From NCBI RefSeq assembly GCF_900104685.1, contig NZ_LT629755.1, positions 3,348,001 through 3,412,000 of the forward strand: DNA of 64,000 nt. Direction: 5' to 3'. Source of the stretch: Agromyces flavus. Its GTDB lineage: Bacteria; Actinomycetota; Actinomycetes; Actinomycetales; Microbacteriaceae. Made by a program: the position numbers and the translations under genes. Shown piece by piece: positions 1,746 to 50,397 of this stretch; within the stretch, counting starts at the first letter, position 1, and every line of letters starts with the position of its first letter. Below the pieces are notes generated by a model. The model made no database searches. It was given only the letters and a program-made list of their open reading frames with translations, and was not told the DNA's origin.

Positions 1746-3221
1746 CTACTGCAGCGCCGACGTCAGGCGCGCGATCCCGTCGAGGAACGTCGCGCTCGCG
1801 GGTTCGCGGTCCCACTCCTCGAGCGTGAGCTCTCGGCCGAGCTCGCGGTACTTCGCCTCGACCTCGCGCATGTCGGCCACGAACGACGCGCCGCGGACGA
1901 GCAGGGTGACCTCGAAGTTCAGGGCGAAGGATCGGATGTCCATGTTGCTCGATCCGATGACCGCGACGTCGTCGTCGATCGAGAGGTGCTTCGAGTGCAG
2001 GATGTACGGGCCCGGGTAGAGCCAGATGCGCACTCCAGCCTGGAGCAGCGCCCGGTAGTACGAGCGCTGCGCATGCCAGACGCCGCCCTGGTCGCCGATC
2101 TCCGAGACGAAGAGCTGGACGTCGAGTCCGCGCAGCTTCGCCGACGTGATCGCGTAGACCATCGCCTCATCGGGCACGAAGTACGGGCTCGTGATGATCA
2201 CCTGCTCCTGTGCCGAGTTCACGAGGGTGAGGAACTGCCTGAGGTTGTTCTCGATCTCGAACGCAGGTCCGCTCGGGACCACCTGGCAGTCGAGTGCGTC
2301 GAGCGACGTGTCGACCGCGATCGCGGTCGCCGGCGTGTTCCACTCCTCTCCGAGCACCTCGCCCGTCTCGGCGTACCAGTCCGAACGGAAGACGGCGTTC
2401 AGCTCGGCGACCGCGGGGCCCGTGACGCGCGCGACGAGCTCCTGCCACATCAGCCCCCGCTTGACGTTCTTCGGCGAGTCGTAGGTGCGGTCGATGAGGT
2501 TCTGCGATCCCATGTGGCCGACCAGGCCGTCGACCACCACGATCTTGCGGTGATTGCGCAGGTCGGGTCGCTGCCACTCGCCCTTCAGCGGGCGCACCGG
2601 CAGCAGGTAGTGCCACTCGACCCCGATGCGGTCGAGCTCCGCGATCGTGGCCTTGTGCAGCGGGACCTTCGCGGACGCGATGTGGTCCATGAGCAGCCGC
2701 ACCTTGACCCCGCGTCGCACGGCGGCCTCCATCGCCGCGAAGAACCCGCGCGTCGTGTCGTCGAACGCGACGATGAAGAACTCGACATGCACGAAGCGCG
2801 TCGCGGTCGCGACATCTGCCGCCATCGCGTCGATCGAGCCCTGGTAGTCGTCGATCAGGGTCGCGCGGTTGCCCGACGTGACGGGGAGTCCGGTGAGTCG
2901 CGTGTTCTGGGCGACGGCGGACGCGAACCAGGCCGGCCAGGCTTCGTGGTCGGTCACGAGGTCGAGGCCCTCGGCCCGCTCGGCGATCATCCGGTCGGCC
3001 TCCTCCTGTCGCGCCGTCCGCTGCTTCGGGAGCCGGATGTTGCCGATCAGCAGGTACAGCAGGATGCCGACGAACGGGATCAGGAAGATGGCGAGCAGCC
3101 ACGCCATCGCGGCGGTGGGCTTGCGCTCGCGGGGGATCACGATGAGCGCGATGATGCGGATGATCCAGTCGACGAGGATGAGGATGCCGCCGATGACGGC
3201 GGCCCATTCGCCGCCGCTCAC
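1746..3221 (-). CDS. cls: Cardiolipin synthase (phospholipase D superfamily)
   Basis: A 491-residue membrane enzyme that joins two phosphatidylglycerols (or PG and CDP-diacylglycerol) to make cardiolipin. The N-terminus has two transmembrane segments (PLDc_N region with DWIIRIIALIVIP and AMAWLLAIFLIPFVG). Two HKD motifs follow: HRKIVVVD near residue 224 and HSKHLSID near residue 409, each followed by GSxN (GSQN and GSSN). The GTG at 3221 is chosen because MSGGEWAAVIGG matches where relatives begin and a GGAG lies about 8 bases upstream. An in-frame ATG at 3329 is rejected because it sits inside a hairpin. A 13-codon ORF ends on this start (see 3218-3259). Confidence 0.92.
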   Translation of the reverse strand: MSGGEWAAVIGGILILVDWIIRIIALIVIPRERKPTAAMAWLLAIFLIPFVGILLYLLIGNIRLPKQRTARQEEADRMIAERAEGLDLVTDHEAWPAWFASAVAQNTRLTGLPVTSGNRATLIDDYQGSIDAMAADVATATRFVHVEFFIVAFDDTTRGFFAAMEAAVRRGVKVRLLMDHIASAKVPLHKATIAELDRIGVEWHYLLPVRPLKGEWQRPDLRNHRKIVVVDGLVGHMGSQNLIDRTYDSPKNVKRGLMWQELVARVTGPAVAELNAVFRSDWYAETGEVLGEEWNTPATAIAVDTSLDALDCQVVPSGPAFEIENNLRQFLTLVNSAQEQVIITSPYFVPDEAMVYAITSAKLRGLDVQLFVSEIGDQGGVWHAQRSYYRALLQAGVRIWLYPGPYILHSKHLSIDDDVAVIGSSNMDIRSFALNFEVTLLVRGASFVADMREVEAKYRELGRELTLEEWDREPASATFLDGIARLTSALQ

Positions 3222-3259
3222 GGGCGGGCTCCGGCTCGGGCGCACAGGTGCTCGTTCAT
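3218..3259 (-). CDS. Possible 13-residue leader peptide coupled to cls
   Basis: The short reading frame MNEHLCARAGARP is preceded by a good ribosome site (GGGAGGGG, four bases before the ATG). It ends in TGA overlapping the GTG start of cls as GTGA. It is in a different frame from cls. Such an arrangement could set cls translation by coupling. There is no evidence of conservation, so it may be chance. Confidence 0.3.
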   Translation of the reverse strand: MNEHLCARAGARP

Positions 3260-3305
3260 CGCCCCTCCCGAGGGTCTGGGAACCGCCGCCGCGGAGTGGA
3301 CGCGT

Positions 3306-42274: not shown

Positions 42275-42715
42275 ATGACGAGCGACGCCCCCCTCGAGTC
42301 GGCCGACGCGCACCTGCGCGCCGCCGGGCTCAAGGTGACGGCGCCCAGGCTCGCCGTGCTCGACGCGGTCACCGGCAACGGGCACCTCGACGCCGATGCC
42401 GTGCACGAACGCGTCGTCGCGTCACTGCCCGGCGTCTCGCTGCAGTCCATCTACAACGTGCTCGGCGCGCTCAGCGCGACAGGCCTCCTTCGCCGCATCG
42501 AGCCGGCCGGCTCGCCCGCGCTGTACGAGAGCCGCATCGGCGACAACCACCATCACGTCGTGTGCACGCGCTGCCACGTCGTCGCCGACATCGACTGCGT
42601 GATCGGCGAGCCGCCGTGCGTCGTGCCATCCGACACGGGCGGCTTCGCCATCCACACCGCAGAGGTCACCTTCTGGGGTCTCTGCGCCGACTGCCAGCGG
42701 CAGGTCTCCGGCTAG
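42275..42715 (+). CDS. furA: Fur-family peroxide/iron regulator (FurA/CatR type)
   Basis: A 146-residue metal-dependent repressor. The winged helix contains [14 protein letters not shown] and [20 protein letters not shown]. The dimerisation half has the metal site [19 protein letters not shown], and [15 protein letters not shown], giving CxxC pairs for a structural zinc. It sits directly before a catalase, as FurA-KatG and CatR-CatA do in mycobacteria and Streptomyces, so it most likely senses peroxide and represses itself and the catalase. The mRNA is predicted to be leaderless. Confidence 0.93.
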
Positions 42716-42837
42716 GAGGCATCCGCTCGCCCCGGCGCCCCGCGCGCCGACCGCCCGACCGAGGCGGTGCTCGTCGTGCCCGCACGTCGCGCGCCGCCGC
42801 GGTCGCGGCATCCACCCACCGAGAAGAGAAGGACGAC

Positions 42838-44358
42838 ATGTCGAACCCCACGACCCCGCCCGTCACCACGACGCAGACCGGAACGCCGGTGTCGAGCGAC
42901 GCGCACTCGCTCACGATCGGCGCCGACGGCGCCACGGTGCTGCACGACCGGTACCTCGTCGAGAAGCTCGCGCAGTTCAACCGCGAGCGCATTCCCGAGC
43001 GCATCGTGCACGCGAAGGGCGGCGGCGCCTTCGGCCGCTTCGAGGTCACGGCGGATGTCTCGGCGTACACGCGCGCGGCCGTGTTCCAGCCGGGTGCCGA
43101 GTCCGAGACGCTCCTGCGCTTCTCGTCGGTCGCCGGTGAGCAGGGCTCGCCCGACACGTGGCGGGACGTCCGCGGCTTCTCGCTGAAGTTCTACACGACC
43201 GAGGGCAACTACGACATCGTCGGGAACAACACCCCGGTGTTCTTCATCCGCGACGGCATCAAGTTCCCCGACTTCATCCACTCGCAGAAGCGCCTGCCGG
43301 GCTCGGGCCTGCGCGACGCCGACATGCAGTGGGACTTCTGGACGCTCTCGCCGGAGTCGGCCCATCAGGTCACCTACCTCATGGGCGACCGGGGCCTGCC
43401 GAAGTCGTGGCGTGAGATGCAGGGCTATGGCTCGCACACCTACCAGTGGATCAACGCGGCCGGCGAGCAGTTCTGGGTCAAGTACCACTTCCGCTCGCAG
43501 CAGGGCGACCTGCACCTGGATGCCGCGACCGCCGAGGCCATTGCCGGCGCCGACGCCGACTTCTACCGCCGCGACCTGTACGAGGCGATCGAGCGCGGCG
43601 AGTTCCCGAAGTGGGACCTCTTCGTGCAGGTCATGCCCTACGAGGACGCGAAGACCTACCGCTTCAACCCGTTCGACCTCACCAAGGTGTGGCCGCACGC
43701 CGACTACCCGCTGATCCCGGTCGGCACGCTCACGCTCGACCGCAACCCGCAGAACTTCTTCGCCGAGATCGAGCAGGCGGCCTTCTCACCGGCCAACACC
43801 GTCCCGGGGATCGCGATCAGCCCCGACAAGATGCTCATGGCGCGCGTCTTCAGCTACCCCGACGCGCACCGCTACCGCGTCGGCACGAACTACAACCAGC
43901 TGCCGGTGAACGCGCCCCACGCGGCATCCGTGCACAACTACTCTCAGGACGGCGCGTCGCGCTACCACTTCGGTGCGCCGACGGCGCCGGTGTATGCGCC
44001 GAACTCGTTCGGCGGCCCGGTGGCGTCGCCGGATGTCGCGGGCGAGGGTGGCTGGGAGGCCGACGGCGAGCTCGTCCGCACGGCGTACACGCTCCGCGCG
44101 GACGACTCCGACTTCGGCCAGGCGGGAACGCTCTATCGCGACGTGTACTCGGTCGAGGCGAAGGTGCGTTTCCTCGAGACCCTCTCGGGGCAGGCGCACG
44201 CGATCTCGATCGACGAGATCCGCGAGCGGTTCTTCCAGTACTGGACGAACGTGGACGCCGAGCTGGGCGCTGCGCTGCGTGCGGCGTACGCGGCGGGCCT
44301 GAACGCCGACGCACCGCAGCAACCGGAGGCCGACGAGGAGGACGCCGCGGCGGCCTAG
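42838..44358 (+). CDS. katA: Monofunctional haem catalase
   Basis: A 506-residue clade-3-type catalase that splits hydrogen peroxide. [17 protein letters not shown] holds the distal catalytic His, [20 protein letters not shown] and [20 protein letters not shown], split as [10 protein letters not shown] and [10 protein letters not shown], are family blocks, and [20 protein letters not shown] contains the proximal haem Tyr. The ATG has a GAGAAGGA ribosome site. It is 122 bases downstream of fur with no terminator between, so the two are probably one operon under the Fur box. Confidence 0.96.
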
Positions 44359-44393
44359 CGGTCGAGTCACCGGGCGGCTCGGCGGGCGAGCGG

Positions 44394-44429
44394 GCGGGGT
44401 GGAGTGGTCGTTCGATCGCTCCACCCCGC
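44394..44429 (+). terminator. Terminator after katA
   Basis: GCGGGGTGGAG (44394-44404) and CTCCACCCCGC (44419-44429) are perfect complements around a 14-base loop, starting 35 bases after the katA stop. Confidence 0.8.
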
Positions 44430-44554
44430 TCGCGTGCGGTTCGGCGAGTGGAGAACGCGCTCCCGGGCCTCCCGCCGAGTCGGGCAGCCGTGCCGTACTC
44501 TCGACACAGCCGAGCGGGCGTTGCCTCCTCGTCGTCCGTCGCAGGAGGTCTCAC

Positions 44555-46192
44555 ATGGGTGTGCAGAACGTCGCGGGAGCGCTGCGGGACTACCGCATCC
44601 ACCGGTACGTGAACGCGTTCTGCCCAAGGTGCCACGAGGACGACCCCGATCGCGACCTCGACACCGTCCAGCGCCTCTCCGGCTGGCTGGCGGCCTACGA
44701 CGACGACTCGGTGTGGCTCGAGCGCGGATGCCCCGAGCACGGGGTCGTGCGCACGCTCTACGACGAGTCCGCCGAAGTGCTCTCGTACCTCGAGCAGTGG
44801 ACCGCGCCGACCAAGTGGCACGCCCCCGACGCCGGCCGAAACTTCAAGCCGGTGCCGAGCGCATACCTCGACGGGCTCCCGGCGATGCAGACGCAGCACA
44901 CCTGCATCCTGCTCGAGGACCTCACCGACCACTGCAACCTGCGCTGCCCGACGTGCTTCGCGGAGTCCGGGCCGGCGGCCACGGCGACCGCCCCGCTCGC
45001 GGAGGTGCTCGCCTCCGTCGACGACCGGCTGGCGAAGGAGAACGGGCGACTCGACGTGCTCATGCTCTCCGGCGGCGAACCGACGCTCTACCCGTGGCTG
45101 GAGCAGCTCGTGGAGCAGTTGGTCGCGCGCCCCATCGTCCGCATCCTGATCAACTCGAACGGCCTGCGCATCGCGAACGACGACGCCTTCGTCGAGTTCC
45201 TGAAGCTGCACCGCGAACGCGTCGAGGTGTACCTGCAGTACGACGGCGAGAGTCCCGAGGCGTCGCGGTTCCATCGTGGGGCCGACATCCGTCGGTTCAA
45301 GGAACGCGCGATCGAGCGGCTGAGCGCGGCCGGCGTCTTCATGACCCTCACGATGACCGCGGCGAAGGGCGTGAACGACGGCGAGATCGGCGCAGTCATC
45401 CGCCGGGCGATGACGACGCCGTACGTGGGCGGCGTGACCATCCAGCCCGTGTTCGGTTCGGGCCGCAACTCCGGTATCGACCCCGAGGATCGCCTCACCC
45501 ACGGCGGCGTGCTCAAGCGCCTGGAGCCGCAGACGAACGGCGAGATCACCTGGCGGGACCTCACGGCGCTGCCGTGCTCGCACCCGCACTGCTGCTCGGT
45601 CGGCTACTTCCTGCTCGACGATGCGAAGGAGTGGAAGTCGCTGACGAGCATCATGGGGCACGACCGGCTCAAGGGCTTCCTCGACCTCAATCCCGACCTC
45701 ATCGCCAACCGCATCGCCGACAGTGAGGTGAACACGCGGATGAAGGAGGCGGTGAAGCACTCGTTGCTCGACCTGTTCAGCGAGCAGTCGAGCCTCTCGC
45801 ACCCCTCGATGTCCGACATCTGGCGCGACATCTGCACCAACTGCGACCTCGGCATCGGCACGCTCACGAAGCTGGCGACGTCCGCGCTGCCCGGCCAGCA
45901 CACGCGGTTGCGCAAGTTCCTCGGCGAGCGCGTCCTCCGCATCACGGTCAAGCCCTTCATGGACATGAACACGATGATCGAGGAGCGACTCACCCAATGC
46001 TGCGTCCACGTCGCCACGGTCAACGACGACACCGGAGCGCACCAGTGCGCGCCGTTCTGCGCCCTGCAGGCCTGGGCGCCGCTCTCGCGGCAGCGCCTCT
46101 CCACGGCCACGGCCCGCAATGCGCTCGATCGTGCCGGCGATCGGTCCCGCGTGCCCCTCGGGGAGGTCATCCCGGTCGGCGAGCCGGCGTGA
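44555..46192 (+). CDS. Radical-SAM protein of the MJ0619/tetraether-synthase (Tes) type
   Basis: A 545-residue radical-SAM protein. An N-terminal metal-binding region has CPRC (Cys23, Cys26) and GCPEHGVVRTLYDES (Cys59). The 4Fe-4S/SAM motif is CNLRCPTC (Cys127, Cys131, Cys134), followed by MLSGGEPTLYPWLEQL (172-176 SGGEP), YLQYDGESPEASRF and TMTAAKGVNDGEIGAVI. Further blocks GGVTIQPVFGSGRNSG, ALPCSHPHCCSVGYF and the Cys-rich C-terminus (TNCDLGIG, QCCVH, HQCAPFC) match the archaeal MJ0619 family, whose member Tes joins lipid tails into tetraethers. Extra cysteines suggest additional clusters. AGGAGG lies six bases before the ATG. It heads a four-gene operon with membrane proteins. The bacterial substrate is unknown. 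Confidence 0.85.
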   Translation: MGVQNVAGALRDYRIHRYVNAFCPRCHEDDPDRDLDTVQRLSGWLAAYDDDSVWLERGCPEHGVVRTLYDESAEVLSYLEQWTAPTKWHAPDAGRNFKPVPSAYLDGLPAMQTQHTCILLEDLTDHCNLRCPTCFAESGPAATATAPLAEVLASVDDRLAKENGRLDVLMLSGGEPTLYPWLEQLVEQLVARPIVRILINSNGLRIANDDAFVEFLKLHRERVEVYLQYDGESPEASRFHRGADIRRFKERAIERLSAAGVFMTLTMTAAKGVNDGEIGAVIRRAMTTPYVGGVTIQPVFGSGRNSGIDPEDRLTHGGVLKRLEPQTNGEITWRDLTALPCSHPHCCSVGYFLLDDAKEWKSLTSIMGHDRLKGFLDLNPDLIANRIADSEVNTRMKEAVKHSLLDLFSEQSSLSHPSMSDIWRDICTNCDLGIGTLTKLATSALPGQHTRLRKFLGERVLRITVKPFMDMNTMIEERLTQCCVHVATVNDDTGAHQCAPFCALQAWAPLSRQRLSTATARNALDRAGDRSRVPLGEVIPVGEPA

Positions 46193-46202
46193 GGCGATCG
46201 AG

Positions 46203-46517
46203 ATGACGACCGACTCGGGGCTGCGCCGGTACGACGAGCACGTGGGACTGCCGTTCGACCCGCTGCGCCTCTGCGTGTTCGCGACGATCGCGCTGCTCAC
46301 GTGCGTGTTCGGGCCCTTGTCGCTGCTCGTGTTCGCCGTCATCGCGATCCGCGGGTACGCCCGTGCCCGTCGTGCCGGGCTGTTGCAGTCGCGCTGCAAG
46401 CTCGGCGACACCCGCAACGTGCTCGCGTACCTCATCGCGCTCGCGGTGCTCGCCGTCGCGGCCGTGCCGCTCTGGCTCGGCATGTGGATGTCGCTCATCA
46501 CCCATGGAATCGGCTGA
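46203..46517 (+). CDS. Small membrane protein between the radical-SAM and Lgt-like genes
   Basis: A 104-residue protein with two or three hydrophobic segments (LCVFATIALLTCVFGPLSLL, then VLAYLIALAVLAVAAVPLWL) and a basic loop RGYARARRAGLLQSRCKLGD. I do not recognise a family. It begins ten bases after the radical-SAM stop and ends three bases before the Lgt-like start, so it belongs to the same operon and may help position substrate or partner enzymes in the membrane. Confidence 0.72.
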   Translation: MTTDSGLRRYDEHVGLPFDPLRLCVFATIALLTCVFGPLSLLVFAVIAIRGYARARRAGLLQSRCKLGDTRNVLAYLIALAVLAVAAVPLWLGMWMSLITHGIG

Positions 46518-46520
46518 CGC

Positions 46521-47378
46521 GTGTATCCGACGCTCGACTCGTTCTGGAGCGCACTCCCCGCGATCGACACGCATGGGGTCTTCGTCGCCCTCGGGCTGGC
46601 GGCCGGCGGACTCGTGTTCCTCGTCGAGCAGCGGCGCCGTGGGGTCGCCGACCCGCGGATCCCGGCCCTCCTCGCGGGGACCCTGCTCGGCGCCGCCGTG
46701 TTCTCGCGCCTGGGCACGTGGGCCCAGCACCTCGACCCTCGCGAGAATCTCACGCTCATCGAGCAGCTCGCGCGCGGCAACGCATCGATCCTGAGTGCGC
46801 TGGTGGGGGCGTGGCTTGGTCTGCATGTCGCCAAGCGCCTCACCGGGTATCGGGAGCGCACCGGCGACCTCTTCGCGCCGGCCGTCGCCGTCGCCCTCGC
46901 CATCGGCCGAGTCGGGTGCTTCCTCACCGAGCGTCCGGGCACGCCGACCGGTGCCGACTGGGGCCTGATCGTGGCGCCGGAGGCGGCCGCCAGGCTCGGC
47001 GTGCCCGCGGCGGTGCCGTTGCACCCGAGCTTCCTGTACGAGATCGCCTTCCACGCGGCTGCGTTCTGCGTGCTGTGGCTGTGGTTGCGTCGGACGCGGA
47101 TCGCGCCGGGGGAGCTCCTGACGCTCTACATCGGCGCGTACGCGGTCTTCCGGTTCTGGGTCGAGTTCGTGCGTGGCAACGACGTGGCGTGGATCGGCCT
47201 GACCAGGCCGCAACTGTTCCTCCTCGTGACCATCCCGTTGTTCGTCGCGCGCATCGTGTGGTTGATCGCGCGCGGGCGATTCCTCGAGCGGACGGCGCCC
47301 GACCAGGCGAACCACGTGCTCCACCAGCAGCAGGACATCGACGAGGGAAGGACGGTGGGCGGTGCCGGGAACGGATGA
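46521..47378 (+). CDS. Non-canonical Lgt-like (prolipoprotein diacylglyceryl transferase family) protein
   Basis: A 285-residue membrane protein with about seven helices. The Lgt-type blocks are ALAIGRVGCFLTERPGTPTG, LHPSFLYEIAFHAAAF and FRFWVEFVRGND. In true Lgt the first block reads GRxxNFxNxE; here Asn is replaced by Cys (GRVGCFLTE), while the Arg, the HPSxxYE motif and the RxxxE-x-R end are kept. This points to an Lgt paralogue with altered specificity. It may move a diacylglyceryl group or bind the lipid on which the neighbouring radical-SAM enzyme acts. GTG start; the C-terminus overlaps the next gene. Confidence 0.82.
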   Translation: MYPTLDSFWSALPAIDTHGVFVALGLAAGGLVFLVEQRRRGVADPRIPALLAGTLLGAAVFSRLGTWAQHLDPRENLTLIEQLARGNASILSALVGAWLGLHVAKRLTGYRERTGDLFAPAVAVALAIGRVGCFLTERPGTPTGADWGLIVAPEAAARLGVPAAVPLHPSFLYEIAFHAAAFCVLWLWLRRTRIAPGELLTLYIGAYAVFRFWVEFVRGNDVAWIGLTRPQLFLLVTIPLFVARIVWLIARGRFLERTAPDQANHVLHQQQDIDEGRTVGGAGNG

Positions 47379-47841
47379 CCACGACGAGCAGTTGGGGCCG
47401 GGCGACGAGGAATCGCGCGACCCCTCGGTACAGCCCGACGCTGAGCAGCGCAATGCCGAGGAGGGCTGGGTCCCGCCCGCTCCGCAACCGGGGTCGGTGC
47501 CGGGCGGCGGAGCGACGCCGGCGGCACCGTTCCAGCCGGGTGCGAGGCCGGCGCCGGGAGCGCCCGCCCCGGGTCTGAGCACCGGTGCAGGCATCGGCAT
47601 CGGCTCGGGCATCGGATGCGGCGCGGTCGCCATCGCATTCGTGCTCGGGGTGCTCCTGGCGGCGGGGCAGGCCACTGGATCCGGCCTGACGCTCGCGATC
47701 GTCTGCGCGGTCCCCCTGCTCGTGGGCATCGGCCTGCTCTTCAGCCGCAGGACGCGCAGCGTCGGCATCGGCGTGCTCATCGTGGCATCCGCCGCGTGGA
47801 TCGTGCTCATCGGACCGTGCGTGGGCGTGCTCGGGTTTTGA
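47362..47841 (+). CDS. Membrane protein with a proline-rich N-terminus, last gene of the radical-SAM operon
   Basis: A 159-residue protein: ~75 disordered Pro/Gly/Ala residues with PPAPQPGSVPGGGATPAAPF, then three membrane segments (IGIGSGIGCGAVAIAFVLGV, LTLAIVCAVPLLVGIGLLFS, IGVLIVASAAWIVLIGPCVG). No family is recognised. Its GTG lies 17 bases inside the end of the Lgt-like gene, which implies co-translation. Confidence 0.68.
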   Translation: MPGTDDHDEQLGPGDEESRDPSVQPDAEQRNAEEGWVPPAPQPGSVPGGGATPAAPFQPGARPAPGAPAPGLSTGAGIGIGSGIGCGAVAIAFVLGVLLAAGQATGSGLTLAIVCAVPLLVGIGLLFSRRTRSVGIGVLIVASAAWIVLIGPCVGVLGF

Positions 47842-47864
47842 CGCCGGAACGAGCGTCCGCCGAG

Positions 47865-47886
47865 CGCGACCGAAGGCAGGGTCGCG
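47865..47886. terminator. Short hairpin between convergent operons
   Basis: CGCGACC (47865-47871) and GGTCGCG (47880-47886) pair over 7 bp around an 8-base loop, between the radical-SAM operon and purQ, whose stop is three bases away. Confidence 0.5.
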
Positions 47887-47889
47887 TGA

Positions 47890-48588
47890 CTACGCCTCGA
47901 CGAGGGTGCGTCGCACGACGCTCGTGAAGAATCCCAGCCCGTCGATGCCCGAGCGCATCGCGGCGGCGGTGTCGGGCCCGAAGCCCGGCTCGACCGCGTG
48001 CTCGGGGTGCGGCATGAGGCCGACGACGTTGCCGCGCTCGTTCGAGATGCCCGCGATGTCGCGCAGCGAGCCGTTGGGGTTCACGTCGACGTAGCGGAAC
48101 ACCACGCGACCCTCGCCCTCGATCCGGTCGAGCGTCTCCTCGGAGGCGATGAAGCCGCCCTCGCCGTTCTTCAGCGGGATCGTGATCTGCTGGCCTGCGT
48201 CGAACTCGCGCGTCCAGTCGGTCGACGCATTCTCGACGCGCAGCACCTGGTCGCGGCAGATGAAGGAGCCGTGGTCGTTGCGGATGAGGCCGCCCTCGAG
48301 CAGGTGCGCCTCGGTGAGCATCTGGAAGCCGTTGCAGATGCCGAGCACCGGCATCCCCTTGTTCGCGGCGTCGACGACCTCGGTCATGATCGGGCTGAGC
48401 GACGCGATGGCCCCGCAACGCAGGTAGTCGCCGTAGCTGAATCCGCCGGGCAGGATGAGGGCGTCGACGCCCTCGAGGTCGTGCGAGCCGTGCCAGAGGG
48501 CCACGGGCTCGCCGCCCGCGAGCCGAACGGCGCGCTGCGCGTCGCGGTCGTCGAGCGAGCCGGGGAACGTGATCACGCCGATGCGCAT
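47890..48588 (-). CDS. purQ: Phosphoribosylformylglycinamidine synthase I (glutaminase subunit)
   Basis: A 232-residue class I glutamine amidotransferase that feeds ammonia to Pur[37 protein letters not shown], the nucleophile elbow [15 protein letters not shown] (Cys) and [11 protein letters not shown] (His, Glu) are all present. A GGAGG lies seven bases before the ATG within the palindrome GGAGGCCTCC. It is 29 bases downstream of purS in the same direction. Confidence 0.97.
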
Positions 48589-49050: not shown

Positions 49051-50397
49051 GTGGCCGGTCCGGTGACTGGGCGCGAGCGGCTCTCGGCGGCCGACGCGTC
49101 GAACTTGGTGATGGACGCGCACGACCAGGTGAACGTGTTCCTCATGGCCGGCGTGCTCGGGCCCGGTGGTCCGATCGGCGGAGACGGCTCGCCGGATGTC
49201 GCGGCGCTCCGGACCGCGTTCGCGGCGGTCGTGCCATCCGCCCCGCGCCTGTCGCAGCAGATCGTGCCGGATGGCCGGAAGTTCGCGTGGGAGCCGGTCT
49301 CACTCGACCTCTCGGAGCACGTGCGGCTCGTCGATCCCGTAGACGGCCTCTCCGGTCTCGAAGCGCTCTGCGCTCAGCTCATGGTCACGCCGTTGCCTCT
49401 CGACCGCCCGCTCTGGGAACTCCTGCTCGTGCCCGGCGTCGCGCCTCGACGCACCGGCCTCGTGTTCCGCATCCACCACGCGATGGCCGATGGCGTCGCC
49501 GCGGTCCGGCTCATCGAACTCCTGCTCGACCCGGGTGCGATGGAGAACGGGTCGGATGTCGCGGCGCTCGGATCGCCCGCGGTTGCGAAGCCCCGATCCA
49601 TCGACGAGGCGGTGGTCCAGCCGGCGGCTCGCGTGAGCCCCAGCCTCCGCACGAGATGGCGCACGCTCGCGTCGGGCGTGGAGCGCACGACCGCGGTGTT
49701 CCGCCACGCCGTGCCGCGCACCGCGCTGCTCGGCCCGATCGGCCCCCGGCGCGGCATCGCGTTCGTCGACATGCCGCTCGATGCGCTCGGCGCCGGCGCC
49801 GTCACCGCCGGCGCGACGATCAACGACGCGCTCCTGACGGCGGTGGTGGCGGCCGCCGAGGGGGCGCTGCGGGCGCGAGGCGAGCCCGTTCCGCAGGTCC
49901 TCCCCGCCACCGTGCCGGTCGCTCTCGCCGACCGAGGCCGCTCCGGCAACGCCGTCGGCGTGATGCTCGTGCCGCTGCCCACCGGTATCGCGGATGTCGC
50001 AACCCGCCTGCGTCGCGTCGCCGAGCTGACACGGCCCCGCAAGGCGGACGCGCGCGCCCGCGGCACGTTCGAACTCACCCGCACGCGAGTCGGCACGATG
50101 CTGTTCTCCCGGTTCGTTCGGTACCAGCGGCTCATCGTGATGTTCGTGTCGAACGTGCGCGGGCCGCGCCATCCGCTCGCGCTGGCCGGAGCCCCGCTCG
50201 AGCACGTCTGGCCCATCGGGCCGGTCCAGGGGAACGTGCGGCTCGGCGTGGCGGCGCTCTCGTACGACGGCCTGCTCCGATGCGGCGTGCACGTCGATGC
50301 CGACGCGCTCGACGCGGAGGTGTTCGGCGACGCCCTGCGGCGCGAACTCGAGCGGGTGGCCGCGCTCGCCGGGGCGGCGAACGACGTTCCGGGCTAG
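49051..50397 (+). CDS. Wax-ester synthase/DGAT-type acyltransferase
   Basis: A 448-residue enzyme of the WS/DGAT family, which makes triacylglycerol or wax esters from acyl-CoA. The catalytic HHxxxDG motif is [39 protein letters not shown] at the N-terminus, a C-terminal [20 protein letters not shown], split as [10 protein letters not shown] and [10 protein letters not shown], and [20 protein letters not shown] are typical. The sequence is a little shorter than mycobacterial Tgs proteins. The GTG is six bases after TAGACT. Its stop codon overlaps that of the convergent MFS gene. Confidence 0.88.

Follow-up and report, generated by a model that had tools for sequence, protein, structure and literature searches.

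What does a bacterium gain from an operon that joins a radical S-adenosylmethionine (SAM) enzyme resembling the archaeal tetraether synthase Tes to an altered paralogue of the lipoprotein-modifying enzyme Lgt? Such an operon lies in the 64,000-nucleotide stretch of Agromyces flavus DNA that we analyzed (NCBI RefSeq assembly GCF_900104685.1, contig NZ_LT629755.1, positions 3,348,001 to 3,412,000; hereafter, the window), in a genome of 3.69 Mb on a single contig. A preliminary description of the window had proposed an undescribed modification of membrane lipids or lipoproteins. We conclude that the radical-SAM enzyme (RSAM), the Lgt paralogue, a small membrane protein (SMP) and a fourth protein, MP4, which carries a C-terminal helix-Gly-x-Cys tag, almost certainly form one functional unit. 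We infer that a lipid is the substrate of this unit, and tentatively propose that it may be a self-contained cassette for lipid modification and protein lipidation.

Composition and conservation of the cassette

The operon layout given in the preliminary description was correct: four genes on the + strand are separated by gaps of 10 and 3 bases, and the final pair overlaps by 17 bases. The features are as follows (window positions).

44555-46192, + strand: radical-SAM enzyme RSAM (P0001), 545 aa; profile and fold matches; kept in 343 confirmed relatives
44933-44956, + strand: CX3CX2C radical-SAM cluster motif, C127-C134 (CNLRCPTC); Cys invariant in 49/49 homologues and 84/84 locus rows
46203-46517, + strand: small membrane protein SMP (P0002), 104 aa; two predicted helices, C24 and C65; seen in 90/97 unique loci
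46521-47378, + strand: Lgt paralogue (P0003), 285 aa, GTG start
46917-46919, + strand: Cys133 codon in GRVGC, the site of E. coli Lgt Asn146; Cys in 94/94 rows from 90 distinct loci
47362-47841, + strand: MP4 (P0004), 159 aa, GTG start; membrane protein with Pro-rich N-terminus, fast-evolving, probable client; supported by profile relatives
47758-47838, + strand: MP4 C-terminal tag, comprising the last helix, Gly151-Pro-Cys153 and a six-residue tail; supported by a pattern test with controls

All previously reported motifs were recovered, namely C23PRC26, C59PEHG, CNLRCPTC (residues 127-134) and KGVNDGEIG in RSAM, and GRVGC, HPSFLYE and VRGND in the Lgt-like protein. These matches are not due to chance, since three Pfam models scored above their cut-offs (Radical_SAM, 63.6 bits; Zn_ribbon_HMPTM, 35.6 bits; LGT, 103 bits). 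The RSAM open reading frame (ORF) can be extended to an alternative in-frame GTG start at 44399; we assigned the start to 44555, because homologues begin near this position and an AGGAGG stands immediately upstream.

In a search covering a single genome of each species, we confirmed the 343 RSAM relatives and retained the best 80 (L033-L112); an Lgt-like gene and an SMP gene were each found in 77 of these 80. Altogether, the locus set included 104 loci, or 97 after seven duplicates were dropped, with synteny read in Actinomycetota. The Lgt-like gene was present in 94 and SMP in 90 of the 97 unique loci, on the same strand as RSAM, and the three loci that lack the Lgt-like gene (L089, L090, L100) are all interrupted by contig ends. 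The predominant gene orders are RSAM-SMP-LGT (52 loci) and LGT-RSAM-SMP (37 loci). The pairing of RSAM with the Lgt-like protein, for which genome-wide co-occurrence and synteny had been suggested as a check, is thus fixed in other genomes. Most loci also place one to three helix-Gly-x-Cys-tagged proteins alongside RSAM, the Lgt paralogue and usually SMP.

The presence of the genes is patchy. Within the host genus, RSAM, LGT and SMP each occur in the identical nine of 60 genomes, and the top nine matches to an MP4 profile are the copies in these same genomes (E 4.1e-14 or better; next 1.5e-6); in the host order, the RSAM gene was found in 14 of 248 sampled genomes. Between-locus distances of the four proteins are all mutually correlated (Mantel r 0.63-0.84, p 0.001, 72 loci). 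The cassette is also carried by plasmids of Mycobacterium avium (L133) and M. branderi (L134), where SMP was not detected. An all-against-all comparison of ORFs in 16 loci with up to 10 kb of flank yielded no other neighbour conserved at E 1e-20 in at least four other loci; MP4 was itself missed by this comparison, as it evolves too fast, and profile and pattern searches were needed. The shared presence and absence, the plasmid carriage, the correlated distances and the lack of any other conserved neighbour indicate that the cassette is gained and lost as a unit. On both plasmids, two tagged proteins sit between the Lgt-like and RSAM genes.

RSAM shares 95% identity with a homologue labelled Agromyces aurantiacus, and the branch extends beyond the phylum. 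With a deeper member (L005) as query, the search listed most proteins without a name; RSAM homologues named Gemmatimonadetes, Herpetosiphonaceae and Acidimicrobiia were among the best 120 listed, and Lgt-like homologues named Chloroflexota, Herpetosiphon, Oscillochloris and Herpetosiphonaceae were among the matches listed. At least nine RSAM/Lgt-like pairs share the size of their longest contig, including a Herpetosiphonaceae pair (45,874 bases), which suggests that the members of each pair lie on the same contig. The branch is common in Actinomycetota, and metagenome-assembled genomes labelled Gemmatimonadetes and Herpetosiphonaceae encode close homologues.

MP4, whose conserved C-terminal Gly-x-Cys tag was missed in the preliminary description, looks like the client. 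It is the least conserved of the four, with a mean identity of 0.28 over its last 90 residues vs 0.79 for RSAM, 0.65 for LGT and 0.55 for SMP. The MP4 profile, which was seeded from the same loci, recovered 111 relatives in 90 of the 104 loci, all on the RSAM strand and with a median gap of 16 bases to the other genes. G151 and C153 are the only invariant columns in 25 aligned members, and 96 of 107 complete profile matches carry a Cys 5-14 residues before the C-terminus.

We then described the tag as a pattern (a hydrophobic stretch of 20 residues preceded by at least one R/K, then Gly-x-Cys and a further 4-14 residues to the end) and applied it to 8,910 ORFs from the 97 loci. It matched 98 ORFs, of which 97 lie on the same strand within 1.5 kb of the enzymes and one lies elsewhere (Fisher 3e-73, a value that measures association and no blind test, the pattern having been set after the sequences were seen), and it was present in 82 of the 97 loci. 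The remaining 15 loci include nine with truncated flanks and four (L036, L076, L090, L097) with profile matches that miss the pattern. Control patterns with A, S, V, T or L substituted for Cys gave 2-11 matches near the enzymes and 0-5 elsewhere, and a control that required a non-Gly residue at -2 gave two and two. The mild enrichment of the G-x-A, S, V and L controls near the enzymes (p 2.5e-3 to 1e-6) is expected where membrane proteins cluster.

The tag is the sole part common to proteins with differing N-terminal regions, including a DUF2510 protein. A positive charge precedes the last helix in 93/93 tags and no R/K follows the Cys in 88/93, from which the Cys is predicted to be outside. 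The lipobox pattern used for comparison was [LVI][ASTVIG][GAS]C preceding the acceptor Cys, and 0/93 tags matched it. Across the 60 genomes of the genus, a tag profile found the nine cassette copies at E 2.2e-8 or better, with the next match at 0.0023; this tag-only profile reaches 39 of the 60 genomes at E 0.1, and under 0.002 returns only the nine copies. The full MP4 profile also weakly matches 11 cassette-free genomes (E 1.5e-6 or worse), Pro-rich membrane proteins being a source of false matches. The tag is confined to the cassette in the genus tested.

Several features surround the cassette in the window. Immediately upstream (42275-44358, + strand) are an ORF for a Fur/PerR-like regulator and a catalase-like ORF, identified by eye only, and an inverted repeat lies near 44395-44429. 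About 1.2 kb downstream (49051-50397, + strand) is an ORF resembling wax-ester synthase/diacylglycerol acyltransferase, with an HHAMADG motif recognized by eye; in the ORF comparison it was not conserved beside the cassette in the 16 other loci. A scan of 44200-48100 for promoters and terminators yielded none.

The radical-SAM enzyme, the Lgt paralogue and the small membrane protein

The assignment of RSAM to the Tes/MJ0619 family held for the predicted fold and failed for family membership. The predicted RSAM structure matches the full-length GDGT-MAS fold, with 428 residues aligned to Tes at about 22% identity, and among solved structures GDGT-MAS/Tes (7tol) is the closest in sequence (129.6 bits). 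However, RSAM scored 160.4 bits with the Tes model NF045702, below its curated cut-off of 450, and its best NCBIfam match, to the radical SAM (seleno)protein family TrsS (NF045646), reached 205.7 bits with a cut-off of 490. Other Tes/TrsS-like proteins of the phylum score 314-470 bits on TrsS and 232-332 on Tes, which places the RSAM family further out, and an Lgt-like gene is absent within 1.5 kb of the Tes/TrsS-like loci L008-L014.

In addition to the predicted full-length fold, RSAM has in common with the archaeal tetraether synthase (Tes/GDGT-MAS; MJ0619; NF045702; PDB 7tol, 7tom) a rubredoxin-type site C-x2-C...C-x2-H, formed by C23, C26, C59 and H62 in 49/49 homologues. In contrast, the Cys triad that ligates the N-terminal auxiliary cluster of Tes (C73, C77, C80) is not present in RSAM, where the aligned stretch holds 0 or 1 Cys in the 49 rows. 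Met439 and Tyr459 of Tes, conserved in 1,000 archaeal homologues, are replaced by Lys466 and Val486 in 49/49 RSAM homologues, by positions counted from the printed alignment. The RSAM family has the additional invariant residues C341, C346, C427, C430 and C498, and unlike Tes it is always tied to the Lgt paralogue where flanks allow.

Some further observations concern individual RSAM relatives. One locus (L131, genome G162) has an in-frame insert of near-identical repeat units at about 3044-3264 in the RSAM gene, after query residue 356. A Mycolicibacterium vanbaalenii plasmid (L135, 3227-8267) has a different neighbourhood with another Tes/TrsS-like radical-SAM gene, flanked by genes for a methyltransferase, a CcdA-like protein, a disulfide oxidoreductase, a second radical-SAM protein and a PhnD/SsuA-like binding protein. 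One source names RSAM family members 7,8-dihydro-6-hydroxymethylpterin dimethyltransferase, which looks like a carry-over of the old MJ0619 annotation. Selenocysteine was considered for three relatives with a flagged in-frame TGA (G446, G419, G518) and rejected, as the TGA lies past the RSAM end and the aligned protein has no internal stop.

The Lgt paralogue belongs to the Lgt superfamily by its fold and its PF01790 score (103 bits vs a gathering threshold of 24.9), but scores 62.4 bits with the TIGR00544 equivalog of the Lgt enzyme, under the cut-off of 118.9. The reported replacement of the conserved Asn in the GRxxN site by Cys was confirmed in 94/94 alignment rows (90 loci, four of them entered twice) and in 118 of 120 more distant homologues. 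Relative to E. coli Lgt (phosphatidylglycerol:prolipoprotein diacylglyceryl transferase, 5azb), both signature residues Asn146 and Asn149 are replaced, by Cys and Thr, in all 94 rows; G154 has no counterpart, and W256 and Y259 correspond to Thr and Gln. The His103 (HGGL) site is occupied by Leu in 92/94 rows; this site is no universal mark of Lgt, since the ordinary Lgt encoded elsewhere in the host genome (C1:1102164-1102892, 221.7 bits) has Tyr there. Tyr26 aligns to His in a 14-row alignment and to gaps in the larger one, and no claim is drawn from it. Alongside the altered signature motif, the phosphatidylglycerol-site arginines are kept; R143, E151, Y235, R239, E243 and R246 are retained in 94, 94, 93, 93, 93 and 93 of the 94 rows, respectively, the remainder being gaps.

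In SMP, C24 and C65 are invariant in 80/80 rows. Its similarity to UbiA is under the cut-off (E 0.01; E 0.0014 for one relative).

Proposed function and rival explanations

In the simplest reading, in which the cassette both modifies a lipid and attaches it to a dedicated client, RSAM would modify a phospholipid tail from the cytosolic side, forming a carbon-carbon or carbon-sulfur bond or functionalising C-H in another way; we regard radical chemistry on a lipid tail as an even proposition. Both bond types are open, since Tes is reported to react via a carbon-sulfur intermediate and to be able to release a sulfur-bearing lipid (PMC9433317). The Lgt paralogue would move a phosphatidylglycerol-derived lipid onto the tag Cys, with altered chemistry or an altered donor, and lipid transfer by this protein is somewhat favoured. 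The tag Cys would be the lipid acceptor, set at the outer face by the positive charge before the last helix and so on the same side as the Lgt active site; the tagged protein is probably the client. SMP would bridge or couple RSAM and the Lgt paralogue. As RSAM would alter the phospholipid tail, the lipid donor, and hence the anchor, would be unusual.

A more specific form of this proposal, a new type of protein lipidation, is speculative and on balance unlikely. RSAM would remodel a phospholipid tail, either by coupling two lipids to a membrane-spanning one or by inserting sulfur, and the Lgt paralogue, rewired and bearing Cys in place of Asn146, would load that lipid on the dedicated helix-Gly-x-Cys tag, giving one designated protein a radical-made, possibly bilayer-spanning anchor.

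A number of points weigh against the lipidation of a client. RSAM should be cytosolic and the tag Cys is predicted outside. Without Asn146, Asn149 and a Gly154 counterpart, and with Leu, Thr and Gln at the 103, 256 and 259 sites, the sequence of the Lgt paralogue suggests that it may perform no diacylglyceryl transfer at all. Five uncut loci (L101, L127, L132, L133, L134) have no detected SMP, in addition to two SMP-less loci that are cut. Two loci with flanks, L037 and L130, yielded neither the tag pattern nor an MP4 profile match, and the near-C-terminal Cys is missing from 11 of the 107 complete profile matches; the Cys-less matches (L084, L085, L086, L088, L090, L094, L095, L098, L110) could be partners rather than clients. 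The tag pattern was, as stated, retrospective.

Pure lipid synthesis and peptide maturation remain serious rivals to a client. In the former, which we consider rather doubtful, RSAM would couple or otherwise alter phospholipid tails in the manner of Tes, lipid loading or release at the membrane would fall to the Lgt paralogue and SMP, and the tagged protein would be a regulator or structural partner. The full predicted Tes fold, the retained lipid-site residues of the Lgt paralogue and locus L130, with RSAM, LGT and SMP but no detected tagged protein, all agree with this. The loss of Met439 and Tyr459 is compatible with tail coupling, since the M439A and Y459F/L variants of Tes are reported to remain active and neither residue is essential (PMC9433317). 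However, RSAM lacks the Tes N-terminal auxiliary cluster, and the near-exclusive link of the Cys tag to the cassette is left unexplained.

Maturation of a peptide appears quite unlikely. RSAM would modify MP4 or SMP, for example at Cys, like the thioether-forming maturases of ribosomally synthesized and post-translationally modified peptides (RiPPs), with the Lgt paralogue as membrane partner or finisher. The RiPP maturases SkfB and SuiB are indeed among the next structural matches of RSAM, but share the radical-SAM core only (about 244-257 residues vs 428 for Tes). The small, fast-evolving and at times multi-copy MP4 would suit a peptide substrate, as would the altered active site of the Lgt paralogue, whereas the predicted extracellular position of the tag Cys places it away from a cytosolic RSAM.

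Two further explanations are very improbable. A metal or disulfide membrane complex through C133 of the Lgt paralogue, C24 and C65 of SMP and C153 of MP4, with no lipid transfer, would account for the invariant or nearly invariant state of all four residues; yet MP4 is the least conserved protein and SMP or MP4 is absent from some loci, a pattern that does not suit a shared metal site. A defence or selfish cassette, in which a membrane or lipid change acts on phages or plasmids, is given the same low probability: it would fit the patchy distribution (9/60 in the genus, 14/248 in the order) and the Mycobacterium plasmids, but with PADLOC the other three proteins had no match and RSAM had only a weak one, to pVip (prokaryotic viperin), over residues 123-209 (35.9 bits). 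Finally, an ordinary extra Lgt for ordinary lipoproteins, adjacent to RSAM by chance, is suggested by the Pfam LGT match and the Lgt fold but is extremely improbable, given the sub-cut-off TIGR00544 score, the replacement of Asn146 and Asn149 in every row, a presence that exactly equals that of RSAM across 60 genomes, and a host that already has its own Lgt.

Comparison with known tag systems and Tes homologues

The tag systems closest in organization are MYXO-CTERM/myxosortase and MrtJ/JDVT-CTERM, as presented in the accessible part of the study that describes them (PMC11980579). In both, the protein ends in a membrane tag whose invariant Cys is proposed to be lipidated, for MYXO-CTERM by an Lgt-like enzyme, and MrtJ/JDVT-CTERM also places one dedicated enzyme beside one target. 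In contrast, MYXO-CTERM runs from the Cys motif to a helix and an Arg-rich end, whereas the cassette tag is reversed, with the helix first, the Cys following it at 5-14 residues before the C-terminus and 88/93 tails free of R/K. The MYXO-CTERM and MrtJ enzymes are CPBP proteases, in place of which the cassette has the Lgt paralogue and RSAM, and that part of the study describes no radical-SAM enzyme (PMC11980579). The acceptor context of the tag is equally unlike the lipobox of lipoproteins. No described system joining RSAM, the Lgt paralogue and the tag was found in the open-licence literature. The parts come from known superfamilies; their assembly may be categorically new, and the chemistry may be a variant of lipid-tail coupling or protein lipidation.

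If the proposal is true, bacteria make an unusual lipid anchor for proteins by a dedicated pathway built on radical chemistry, and attach it to a C-terminal acceptor tag that differs from the lipobox. The RSAM family matters regardless of such chemistry, as a Tes-like bacterial branch. Bacterial Tes homologues have been used for proposing producers of the branched glycerol dialkyl glycerol tetraether (GDGT) lipids of palaeothermometry (PMC8941075, PMC11868695), and such counts could include the RSAM branch. The GRxGC signature of the neighbouring protein and the tag provide simple markers that distinguish this branch.

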